A stretch of 39,479 nucleotides of DNA from a virus (IMGVR_UViG_3300008448_000233:1-39479), one strand, 5' to 3'. Positions 21,869-24,563 are shown, counted from the first letter of the stretch. A program made the numbers and translations. The notes: generated from the letters alone by a model not told the origin.

Positions 21869-22792
21869 ATGAGTGTAACACCTTCGTTAGTTAAAACACC
21901 GTATACTAAAACAAAGTTTGCAACGCAAAAAGAGTTGGATGACTTTATAAAATGTTGTGACCCCGACACAGGTTATCTATATTTTATGGATAACTTTTTT
22001 ATGATACAACACCCCACGCGTGGTAGCATGGTGTACCATCCGTGGGACTATCAAAAAAGATTAATAGAAACTTATCATAAGTATCGTTTTAGTATTAGCC
22101 TAATGCCTCGCCAGAGTGGCAAATCAACAAGTGCTGCAGGATATTTACTTTGGTATGCTATGTTCGTACCAGATAGTACAATTCTTATTGCGGCACACAA
22201 ATACACAGGCGCGCAGGAAATTATGCAGCGTATTCGCTATGCATATGAAAATTGCCCCGACCATATCAAAGCGGGCGTGACTACTTATAACAAAGGTTCC
22301 TTAGATTTTGAAAACGGATCTAGAATAGTATCTGCTACTACTACTGAAACCACCGGTCGCGGAATGTCTATTTCTTTGTTATACTTAGACGAGTTTGCTT
22401 TCGTTCGGCCATCTATTGCTGAGTTATTTTGGACCTCAATTACACCCACGTTGAGTACTGGGGGTAAAGCGATTATAACTAGCACACCCAACAGTGACGA
22501 AGATCAGTTTGCACTTATTTGGAAACAAGCCAATAAATGTGAAGATGCATATGGGAATGAAACTGAATTAGGAATCAATGGTTTCAGAGCATATAGAGCG
22601 CAATGGAGTGAACAGCCCGGAAGAGATGAAAAATGGGCTACTGAAATGAAAGCTCAATTAGGCGAAGATCGTTTCCGTCGAGAAATAGGATGCTTTAACG
22701 GTGAAACACAAATAAACCTAAAAGATTCAACCGGTAAAATATTCACGGCTACAATGTCGGATCTAGAGAAATTATTAAATGACGATAAATAA
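21869..22792 (+). CDS. terL: Terminase large subunit, N-terminal half fused to N-intein
   Basis: 307 residues: N-extein 1-274 (ATPase) plus IntN 275-307. The ATPase has a T4 gp17-like Walker A in MPRQSGKSTSA (79-89) and Walker B LLYLDEFAFV (170-179), with the coupling segment ITSTPNS (203-209). At 271-274 the sequence REIG precedes Cys275, where a canonical terminase would continue with CEF. The frame instead runs into CFNGETQINLKDSTGKI and stops after LLNDDK. That tail is an intein start (Cys1, block A), so the protein must be joined to TerL-C by trans-splicing. As encoded it lacks the whole nuclease domain. Confidence 0.93.
   Translation: MSVTPSLVKTPYTKTKFATQKELDDFIKCCDPDTGYLYFMDNFFMIQHPTRGSMVYHPWDYQKRLIETYHKYRFSISLMPRQSGKSTSAAGYLLWYAMFVPDSTILIAAHKYTGAQEIMQRIRYAYENCPDHIKAGVTTYNKGSLDFENGSRIVSATTTETTGRGMSISLLYLDEFAFVRPSIAELFWTSITPTLSTGGKAIITSTPNSDEDQFALIWKQANKCEDAYGNETELGINGFRAYRAQWSEQPGRDEKWATEMKAQLGEDRFRREIGCFNGETQINLKDSTGKIFTATMSDLEKLLNDDK
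22691..22789 (+). other. N-terminal split-intein fragment (IntN, 33 residues)
   Basis: Starts at TGC 22691 (Cys275 = intein residue 1) with CFNGETQI, a block A signature, and ends at the stop after 33 residues. An IntN this short is of the atypically split kind known from metagenomic TerL inteins such as AceL-TerL (IntN about 25), unlike the ~100-residue IntN of DnaE. Confidence 0.88.
22784..22791 (+). promoter_or_regulatory. Late-promoter-like box GATAAATA over the TerL-N stop
   Basis: The bases encode the last residues and stop of TerL-N (Asp-Lys-stop). If used, it would transcribe the homing endonuclease and TerL-C independently of TerL-N. Coding constraint makes this less certain than other boxes. 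Confidence 0.35.
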
Positions 22793-22796
22793 AAGT

Positions 22797-22826
22797 GTAG
22801 TTCGCGGAATGGGGATTCCCAACTAC
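22797..22826 (+). other. RNA hairpin between the TerL-N and endonuclease genes
   Basis: Outer stem GTAGTT (22797-22802) with AACTAC (22821-22826); inner stem GGAAT (22806-22810) with ATTCC (22815-22819) around GGGG; asymmetric internal loop CGC/C. There is no T tract, so it is not a standard terminator. It lies upstream of, and does not mask, the ribosome-binding site AAGGAG of 22853. Confidence 0.6.
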
Positions 22827-22852
22827 TCTAATGCTATAAAGGAGCAATCAGC

Positions 22853-23527
22853 ATGACTATTTATTCACCTCAGTGTATACCTACAGGATATTATGTATAC
22901 GCCTATTTACGACAAGACGGTACACCTTATTATATAGGCAAAGGTAAAAACAAACGAGCATGGCAGAAACATGAAACTATAAAAAGACCGTCGTATATCA
23001 ACATTATTATATTAGAGCAATCACTTACTGAAATAGGTGCAGTTGCATTAGAAAGAAGGATGATATGTTGGTATGGTAGAAAAGATTTAGGTACGGGAAT
23101 ATTGCGAAACAGAACTGATGGAGGTGATGGTACATTCAACTGTATGCCTTGGAATAAAGGGTTGAAGTTACCCAACCACGGCGGACGTAATAAAGGAACA
23201 GTATGGTCACCTGATGAGCGAGAGTCGCAACGCAAAGTTCGGTCTGCCCTGAATTATTACAATTATTTAAAAGACCCGGTAAGATGCCAAAGTATAAGCA
23301 CTGCCCAAAAAGGTAGAGTGGGTACGAGTTTAGGTAAAAAATGGTTTAATGACGGAATAAACGAGTATTATGGTGATAGTGTACCGATAGGATTAACTGC
23401 CGGCAGGTTAATAAACAATCAATCTAAAAAAGGATTAAGATGGTTTAATAACGGAAAAGAAAATAGGCAGTTTAGAGAAGGCACACAGTTAGAAGGATTT
23501 ATACATGGCAGAGTTAGTAAAAAATAA
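22853..23527 (+). CDS. Free-standing GIY-YIG homing endonuclease between the terL halves
   Basis: 224 residues. GIY-YIG nuclease domain at about 12-100: YYVYAYLRQDGTPYYIGKGK with R35, and catalytic Glu67 in ALERRMICWYGR. The DNA-binding part has a NUMOD3-like helix region (KGTVWSPDERESQRKVRSAL) and two copies of a KKWFNDG/LRWFNNG...G...GR motif (about 160-187 and 195-221). It would cut terL DNA lacking the insertion at this site and so spread the split locus by recombination. The gene is in neither extein frame. Strong SD (AAGGAG); its end overlaps TerL-C by 23 nt. Confidence 0.92.
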   Translation: MTIYSPQCIPTGYYVYAYLRQDGTPYYIGKGKNKRAWQKHETIKRPSYINIIILEQSLTEIGAVALERRMICWYGRKDLGTGILRNRTDGGDGTFNCMPWNKGLKLPNHGGRNKGTVWSPDERESQRKVRSALNYYNYLKDPVRCQSISTAQKGRVGTSLGKKWFNDGINEYYGDSVPIGLTAGRLINNQSKKGLRWFNNGKENRQFREGTQLEGFIHGRVSKK

Positions 23528-23837
23528 ATTAGGATTAGAAATTCTCACTGATAATGGCTGGGAACCATTTGATGGTATAGTCAATCAAGGAATTAAGCAC
23601 ACTATAATAGTAGAGACAGAAATTACTAAGGTGACTCTTACTCCTGACCATCAAATTTACATTAATGTTGATGAGAAAATTTCTGCGGAACGCCTTAAAC
23701 CAGGTGATTTAATTTCTACTCTCCACGGCCCACAACAAGTTATATCAATAAAAGAAAATCTATTAGAAAACGTGTACGACATTGTAAACGCAGGTGCTAA
23801 TAAGAGATTTTACGCTAATGATATATTGTGTTCCAAT
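23505..23837 (+). other. C-terminal split-intein fragment (IntC, 111 residues)
   Basis: Block B LTPDHQIYI (T-x-x-H, about residues 45-53), AERLKPGDLI, block F NVYDIVNAGANKRFYANDIL (about 89-108) and block G CSN followed by extein Cys112 at TGC 23838. The final Asn and +1 Cys are intact, but the penultimate residue is Ser instead of the usual His. No endonuclease domain is inserted. Confidence 0.88.
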
Positions 23838-24563
23838 TGCGAATTTATTATCGCCGATGAAACTCTAATTAATCCTACTACGCTAATAGATTTAGAGGGC
23901 ATAGATCCTATTAATAGAATGGGTCAGGTTCGCTGGTATGAAAAGCCAAAAAAAGGAAATATCTATTCAGTGTCACTGGATCCTAGTCTAGGTACGGGAA
24001 GTGATCCTGCTGCCATACAAATTTTTGAAGCAAACACTACGACTCAGATAGGTGAATGGAAACACAATAAAACAGATATTCCTACTCAAATTAAATTATT
24101 AGCCCAAATAAACAAATATATCCAAGAATGCACTGAAGAACCTAGTAATATATACTATTCTATAGAAAACAATAGTATAGGCGAAGCAGCATTGATATCA
24201 CTGAATGAATACGGGGAAATAAACATACCCGGTATTTTCCTCAGTGAACGTGGTAAAAAGAGGAAAGGGTTTAATACTACACATAAAGTAAAAATTGCAG
24301 CATGTGCTAAGTTTAAAACCTTAGTAGAAAGTAGAAAAATGAAGATTTATAGTAAAAGTTTAGTGAGTGAACTTAAAACCTTCGTTGCTATGGCAGGAAG
24401 TTACGCAGCAAAAATTGGTGAAACTGATGACTTAGTAATGGCTTCATTATTAAATATACGAATGATGCAAGAATTATCCGAATATCACATGAACTTAGAA
24501 GAACATATGCGTGATCATGATGAATATGTACAACCTTTGCCTTTTTTTGCAGTTATAAGTTAA
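23505..24563 (+). CDS. terL: Terminase large subunit, C-terminal half preceded by C-intein
   Basis: 352 residues: IntC 1-111, then C-extein from Cys112. The C-extein opens CEFIIADETLINP, which completes the terminase REIG-CEF motif after splicing. The nuclease domain has the RNase H-like acids D159 in VSLDPSLGTGSD, E221 in SIENNSIG and D308/D309 in GETDDLVMASL. The joined exteins (274 + 241) give 515 residues, shorter than T4 gp17 (610) but complete for ATPase and nuclease. The ATG at 23505 has an AAGGA upstream. Packages concatemeric DNA into proheads and cuts it. Confidence 0.93.
   Translation: MAELVKNKLGLEILTDNGWEPFDGIVNQGIKHTIIVETEITKVTLTPDHQIYINVDEKISAERLKPGDLISTLHGPQQVISIKENLLENVYDIVNAGANKRFYANDILCSNCEFIIADETLINPTTLIDLEGIDPINRMGQVRWYEKPKKGNIYSVSLDPSLGTGSDPAAIQIFEANTTTQIGEWKHNKTDIPTQIKLLAQINKYIQECTEEPSNIYYSIENNSIGEAALISLNEYGEINIPGIFLSERGKKRKGFNTTHKVKIAACAKFKTLVESRKMKIYSKSLVSELKTFVAMAGSYAAKIGETDDLVMASLLNIRMMQELSEYHMNLEEHMRDHDEYVQPLPFFAVIS

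Follow-up and report, generated by a model that had tools for sequence, protein, structure and literature searches.

We analysed a terminase gene in a viral record of IMG/VR (IMGVR_UViG_3300008448_000233, 39,479 bases; this whole stretch is referred to as the window, and positions are counted along it), in which the large terminase subunit TerL is encoded as two genes, with a gene for a homing-endonuclease-like protein of GIY-YIG type between them and the two parts of a putative split intein at their inner ends. All features described here lie on the plus strand. The first open reading frame (ORF; 21869-22792, 307 residues) consists of the N-extein (21869-22690, 274 residues), which comprises the ATPase domain (Pfam Terminase_6N, 1.5e-14), and of the N-terminal intein part IntN (22691-22789), a tail of 33 residues that follows the REIG ending in Gly274, opens with Cys275 (Cys1 of the intein), reads CFNGETQINLKDSTGKIFTATMSDLEKLLNDDK and is closed by the stop codon at 22790-22792. 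The free-standing nuclease gene (22853-23527, 224 residues) is followed by the second terminase ORF (23505-24563, 352 residues), which starts with the C-terminal intein part IntC (23505-23837, 111 residues). IntC begins within the nuclease gene, whose last 23 nucleotides it shares, and a Shine-Dalgarno-like AGAAGG is located ahead of it at 23491. IntC ends in LCSN, after which the C-extein (23838-24560, 241 residues) resumes from Cys112-EFIIAD, the Cys+1 of the intein, with an RNase H-like nuclease domain (Pfam Terminase_6C, 4e-5). The original prediction, which was made from the sequence alone, had described this arrangement, and its ORF coordinates, the residues at both junctions and the lengths of the two intein parts were reproduced exactly. 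The same holds for the joined product of 274 + 241 = 515 residues (computed mass 58.6 kDa), with Walker A from residue 80 and Walker B at 170 of the N-extein and with D159, E221 and D308/309 (numbering of the second ORF) in the expected nuclease motifs. The terminase belongs to the T4 type, the PDB homologues of the C-extein being T4 gp17 and RB49.

Searching the intein parts against known inteins bore out the claim that the intein is split atypically and has a short IntN (33/111 residues). IntN of the window was aligned with those of 12 relatives, and a profile built from 13 concatenated IntN and IntC pairs (A1), searched against PDB sequences, matches VidaL (1.9e-13), CatC (4e-9) and CatN (0.33), and also DnaX, gp41-1 and NrdJ-1. 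Pfam Intein_splicing is matched by 10 of the 13 profile members at E-values up to 1 (best 8.5e-6), with the window intein at 0.012, which falls short of the curated cut-off. All aligned relatives share Cys1, the TxxH motif, the terminal Asn and Cys+1 without exception. An unsplit relative at the same terL site (L165; L numbers denote the related loci) is predicted to adopt a HINT fold with a predicted local distance difference test score (pLDDT) of 93.8, and its top structural match is VidaL, with 16% identity over the fold. On these profile matches and this predicted structure, we identify the TerL insert as a HINT-family intein close to VidaL and Cat-TerL, which probably stitches the two TerL halves together.

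The relatives are viral contigs that were found by scans with TerL-C and with the intein profile; the viral collections are fragmentary, and all counts of relatives are lower bounds. At least 65 intein-less relatives were found in IMG/VR, in which TerL-N continues directly into CEFI without an insert. The scans also gave several unsplit inteins and fractured loci, of which at least about 50 are distinct, and the position is almost always the one after codon 274. Because these at least 65 relatives are uninterrupted and L002-L016 carry IntC, mostly together with a nuclease gene, at the codon identical to that of the window, the fracture is not a product of chance. The distribution of the insert is patchy. 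In the TerL tree, the window groups with 17 other rows (support 96), all of which lack the intein, and its nearest relative (L018), 90% identical in TerL, is intein-less as well. Fractured TerL genes are also present in two cultured Straboviridae, Providencia phage PSTRCR_127 (L162, 2193-5101), in which the gene between the halves is a GIY-YIG gene of SegE type according to Pfam, and Serratia phage 92A1 (L163, 2151-5113), whose middle gene is a close homologue; the annotations of both phages call the middle gene a "hypothetical protein" and leave the split gene and the intein unmentioned.

Apart from the site after codon 274, TerL of L184 (1088-4445) is distributed over three genes with two successive split inteins: an ORF at 1088-1726 has SITLLY (Walker B) and then an IntN at its end, a second one at 1813-2544 comprises an IntC, the middle extein and a second IntN, and an HNH gene and then an IntC with TerL-C follow. 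Similar traces are found in L230, L227 and L193. Since the TerL inteins of Salicola phage SCTP-2 (L164) and of L240-L244 are located elsewhere, near Walker A and Walker B, terL harbors several intein insertion sites.

The gene between the halves had been described as an intact homing-type nuclease, and indeed the catalytic residues Tyr16, Tyr27, Arg35, Glu67 and Asn86 of the 224-residue product are invariant in 25 relatives. A profile search matches GIY-YIG proteins of the PDB (E-value 0.013), the relative in L223 matches Pfam GIY-YIG (0.016), and the structural matches of the window nuclease are UvrC GIY-YIG domains, albeit weak ones (E-value 0.3, probability 0.9). Across the loci, the slot is occupied by three nuclease classes, HNH, GIY-YIG and the Pfam family DUF7487, whereby the class assignment of some members rests on motifs. 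HNH is the commonest class, matched in Pfam by 34 of the 52 scanned ORFs; five of the 52 match DUF7487 (L002, L008, L009, L213, L234), and GIY-YIG genes are found in the window, L003, L004, L005, L011, L178 (frameshifted), L223 and L212, the last of these being a GIY-YIG gene of another type. The C-terminal half of the window nuclease (residues 101-224; 23153-23524) shares 52-55% identity with the nucleases of L007 and L013-L016 and ends in a conserved GR..KK, which overlaps the start of IntC. As this half is common to GIY-YIG and HNH proteins, we conclude that the catalytic domain has been exchanged, and the constant half is presumably the one that recognises DNA. On the IntC tree, the GIY-YIG class requires six changes, five of them forced by supported branches. 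The GIY-YIG loci are as scattered on the TerL tree as shuffled labels, and they are scattered on the intein tree too.

Comparison of related loci points to mobility of the whole insert. Between L013 and L016, synonymous divergence (dS) amounts to 0.96 and 1.82 in the exteins versus 0.10 in IntN, 0.36 in the nuclease and 0.39 in IntC; L003 and L004 show the same trend less strongly. Such a contrast is to be expected if the insert is transferred as a single unit, and inserts have evidently moved between relatives recently. The ratios of nonsynonymous to synonymous divergence of IntN, IntC and the nuclease, about 0.07-0.17 where measurable, indicate that the intein halves and the nuclease are under purifying selection in the relatives. 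In two loci, the nuclease has decayed with the gene still split, L006 keeping its last 64 codons and L230 about 32. The unsplit inteins of L165 and L186 carry an out-of-frame nuclease tail directly upstream of IntC (hidden Markov model E-values 1.6e-8 and 5e-11), and shorter, weaker traces are present in L181 and L183, of which the former lies mostly within the normal overlap of nuclease and IntC and the latter is not significant alone (E-value 0.53). From these out-of-frame scars, the most likely origin of the continuous inteins is a fractured state, with loss of the nuclease and re-fusion of the parts. In our literature search, an earlier report of this direction, from fractured to re-fused, was not found, the primary fractured-gene paper lying outside that search.

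Just past the IntN stop codon, 19 of the 33 HNH loci encode a copy of the start of the C-extein (E-F-I-I-Y/F-D-E-T or part of it). In a reading-frame motif test, shuffled sequences gave a mean of 0.3 and a maximum of 3 such copies, a contrast that is optimistic, since the motif was picked after the sequences had been seen; a nucleotide test of the copy in each locus was mostly not significant. Of these 19 loci, 18 possess an (A/C)TAAATA box, which in every case starts no more than 4 nucleotides from where the copy ends. A published example is T4 I-TevI, which binds an operator similar to its homing site and thereby represses the late promoter of its own gene (PMC2988022). The copy beside the late-promoter box appears to resemble this operator, which suggests, by analogy, a homing site within the first few codons of the C-extein.

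In most GIY-YIG loci, the place of this copy is taken by a structured leader of about 82 nucleotides, which in the window spans 22784-22865 and is matched end to end by a covariance model (R1, E-value 1.8e-19, the window itself being in the model). It opens with the late-promoter-like box GATAAATA (22784-22791), a putative promoter that is conserved in leader copies, encodes the last IntN residues as well and overlaps the IntN stop. The box is followed by hairpin P2 (22797-22826, arms GTAGTTCGCGG and CCCAACTAC), hairpin P3 (22831-22848) with the Shine-Dalgarno sequence AAGGAG (22839-22844), the ATG and, just past the start codon, a TATTTA (22858-22863), again conserved in leader copies. Two-sided changes occur at all ten pairs of P2 across 104 copies, and the covariation score of P2 is 0.311 compared to 0.089 after shuffling and at most 0.08 after sliding. 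P3 pairs in 81% versus 61% after shuffling, as determined in the copies without a bulge; P3 of the window is of the bulged-A class, in which there is hardly any variation. TATTTA mirrors the upstream ATAAATA and is conserved in three reading phases, and it is therefore not kept for the protein. A candidate third helix (P1), which would pair ATAAATA with TATTTAT in a three-way junction, was dropped, the flanking positions being without covariation.

With relaxed matching, all fetched loci together contain 155 distinct leader copies. Among the loci that were fetched by the DNA pattern alone, 99 of 107 copies precede an ORF with a GIY-YIG or HNH motif, and the remaining eight precede mostly short, truncated or other nuclease-related ORFs, for instance L265, with a different type of endonuclease, and L349, with a remnant of NUMOD3. 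Among the 144 proteins encoded downstream of the leader, two PHROGs that bear the name homing endonuclease are matched by 93 and by 53. Overall, the leader is found almost exclusively before genes of this kind; it precedes unrelated homing endonucleases in more than 100 phage contigs, and at least 119 stretches in IMG/VR carry it. A search of Rfam 15 gave no match at gathering score, and the idea that the leader is part of a known RNA was rejected on this basis; no exact-pattern match was found in cellular genomes of 84,980 species. A first blastn probe had suggested that the leader is absent from cultured phages, which was overturned by a second probe and the covariance model: Rhizobium phage RHph_I1_18 has one copy, which immediately precedes a SegE-like nuclease (E-value 1.3e-9).

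Control of phage homing endonucleases by late promoters and RNA hairpins has been published (PMC2988022), and by analogy the leader is likely to serve a late, controlled expression of the nuclease. It is possible, but rather doubtful, that the leader is primarily a recombination module, i.e. a common 5' border for the exchange of homing endonucleases, with regulation being secondary. Such a role would fit its occurrence before unrelated nucleases and the TATTTA, whose retention in all three phases implies conservation as DNA or RNA instead of protein. Recombination would, however, favor plain sequence identity, whereas the compensatory changes at all ten pairs of P2 and the covariation of P3 around the Shine-Dalgarno sequence need selection on RNA structure. 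We regard it as probable that the leader represents an undescribed RNA family, a portable late-expression cassette common to GIY-YIG, HNH and at least one DUF7487-type homing endonuclease in a large pool of mostly uncultured phages, which would give unrelated nucleases the same regulatory front end, and that fractured intein genes are reversible, being healed through deletion of the nuclease and re-fusion of IntN with IntC over its scar.

Taken together, we consider the locus, with a probability of roughly 0.87, to be a mobile fractured-gene element in the essential terminase gene, which combines a trans-splicing split intein, a homing endonuclease and control by the leader. The two TerL ORFs would be translated separately, IntN and IntC would associate into one HINT domain, and the exteins would be ligated by class-1 trans-splicing (Cys1, Asn-Cys+1) to the 515-residue TerL. 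The GIY-YIG protein would act as a homing endonuclease, with cleavage by its N-terminal domain and recognition of terL, probably in the region of the insertion codon, by its C-terminal half. If a co-infecting phage without the intein were cut, repair would draw on the window genome, whereby IntN, nuclease and IntC would be copied together, and the leader would provide the nuclease with its own late transcription and with translational control, as in T4 I-TevI or Aeh1 mobE. Several points weigh against this interpretation. Splicing, homing and regulation by the leader are inferred from sequence, and the target site from the HNH loci and not from the GIY-YIG enzyme. The window nuclease has no Pfam match at any useful score, GIY-YIG included, and its predicted structure is of moderate quality (pLDDT 72.7). 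In the intein, block F has a Lys where some relatives have His, and the penultimate residue is Ser, not His, in the window and most relatives. A penultimate His is not essential, because AceL NrdHF splices without both conserved His residues (PMC7891396).

TerL might alternatively function as two non-covalent subunits with inactive intein remnants, for which the ribonucleotide reductase of Aeh1, split by a homing endonuclease and working in pieces, sets a precedent according to a passage of PMC10448857 that cites Friedrich 2007. We consider this improbable in view of the invariant Cys1, TxxH, terminal Asn and Cys+1, the purifying selection on IntN and IntC, and the in-frame intein that is kept in unsplit alleles. 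Still less probable is that the nuclease is a non-selfish packaging accessory of the phage, like the HNH proteins that can act with terminase at cos sites in HK97-like phages (PMC10448857), as it is absent from at least 65 close relatives, is replaced by unrelated nucleases at the slot, is found decayed in two loci (L006 and L230) and travels together with the intein.

Elsewhere in the window, PHROGs assign genes for a baseplate wedge, a UvsX-like recombinase and single-strand DNA-binding proteins. A 432-residue ORF at 7987-9285 matches phrog_1314, which is named HNH endonuclease, over its full length (6e-106) and is unrelated to the TerL insert.

Dassa 2009 is said to have described fractured genes in which a split intein is combined with a free-standing homing endonuclease. 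The window shares this arrangement: a conserved enzyme gene is interrupted within an intein, and a separate nuclease gene stands between the halves. Like AceL-TerL, GOS-TerL and the engineered Cat, with IntN/IntC lengths of 25/104, 37/115 and 30/104 residues, the window intein combines a short IntN and a long IntC with Cys+1, and it shares the terminase host with AceL-TerL and GOS-TerL (PMC11766414). By this host, an IntN within about 25-40 residues and its sequence kinship, with Cat and VidaL as the closest solved inteins, it belongs to the atypical TerL split inteins of the AceL/GOS/Cat type; it differs from these and from VidaL in the penultimate Ser and in the GIY-YIG gene, presumably leader-driven, between the halves. 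The original prediction of a fractured terminase with a split intein and a GIY-YIG gene in between thus stands, except for the proposal of GIY-YIG as a nuclease class not seen in this role before: it has been published for AceL NrdHF, which carries a GIY-YIG gene between its halves (PMC7891396), and it is also present in the fractured TerL genes of PSTRCR_127 and 92A1. Fractured genes, atypically split TerL inteins and GIY-YIG in a fractured gene are therefore known kinds. What goes beyond the original prediction and seems to be new is the swapping of nuclease domains at one site, the scarred re-fused alleles and above all the structured leader at 22784-22865, and the operator-like copy seems to be new as well. 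In contrast to AceL NrdHF and the other fractured genes, one terL site exchanges HNH, GIY-YIG and DUF7487 nucleases, with decayed and re-fused alleles visible. I-TevI, segB, Aeh1 mobE and seg43(25) likewise have a late promoter, an RNA hairpin and a Shine-Dalgarno sequence directly before the homing endonuclease, and for I-TevI there is also an operator resembling its homing site, comparable to the extein copy of the HNH loci (PMC2988022). These cases were described gene by gene, whereas here one homologous leader without an Rfam family extends across unrelated nuclease families and many phages.

One insertion site hence displays every stage of the cycle: without an insert, fractured and occupied by one of three nuclease classes, still split with the nuclease decayed, and re-fused with a scar. 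Two questions thereby become accessible to experiment, namely the origin and possible reversion of split inteins, and the way in which a homing endonuclease acquires another catalytic domain without losing its target. The diverse inteins with a short IntN enlarge the pool for protein-labelling tools. The leader suggests a dedicated regulatory RNA that is common to phage homing endonucleases, which can be tested with the copy in the cultured Rhizobium phage.
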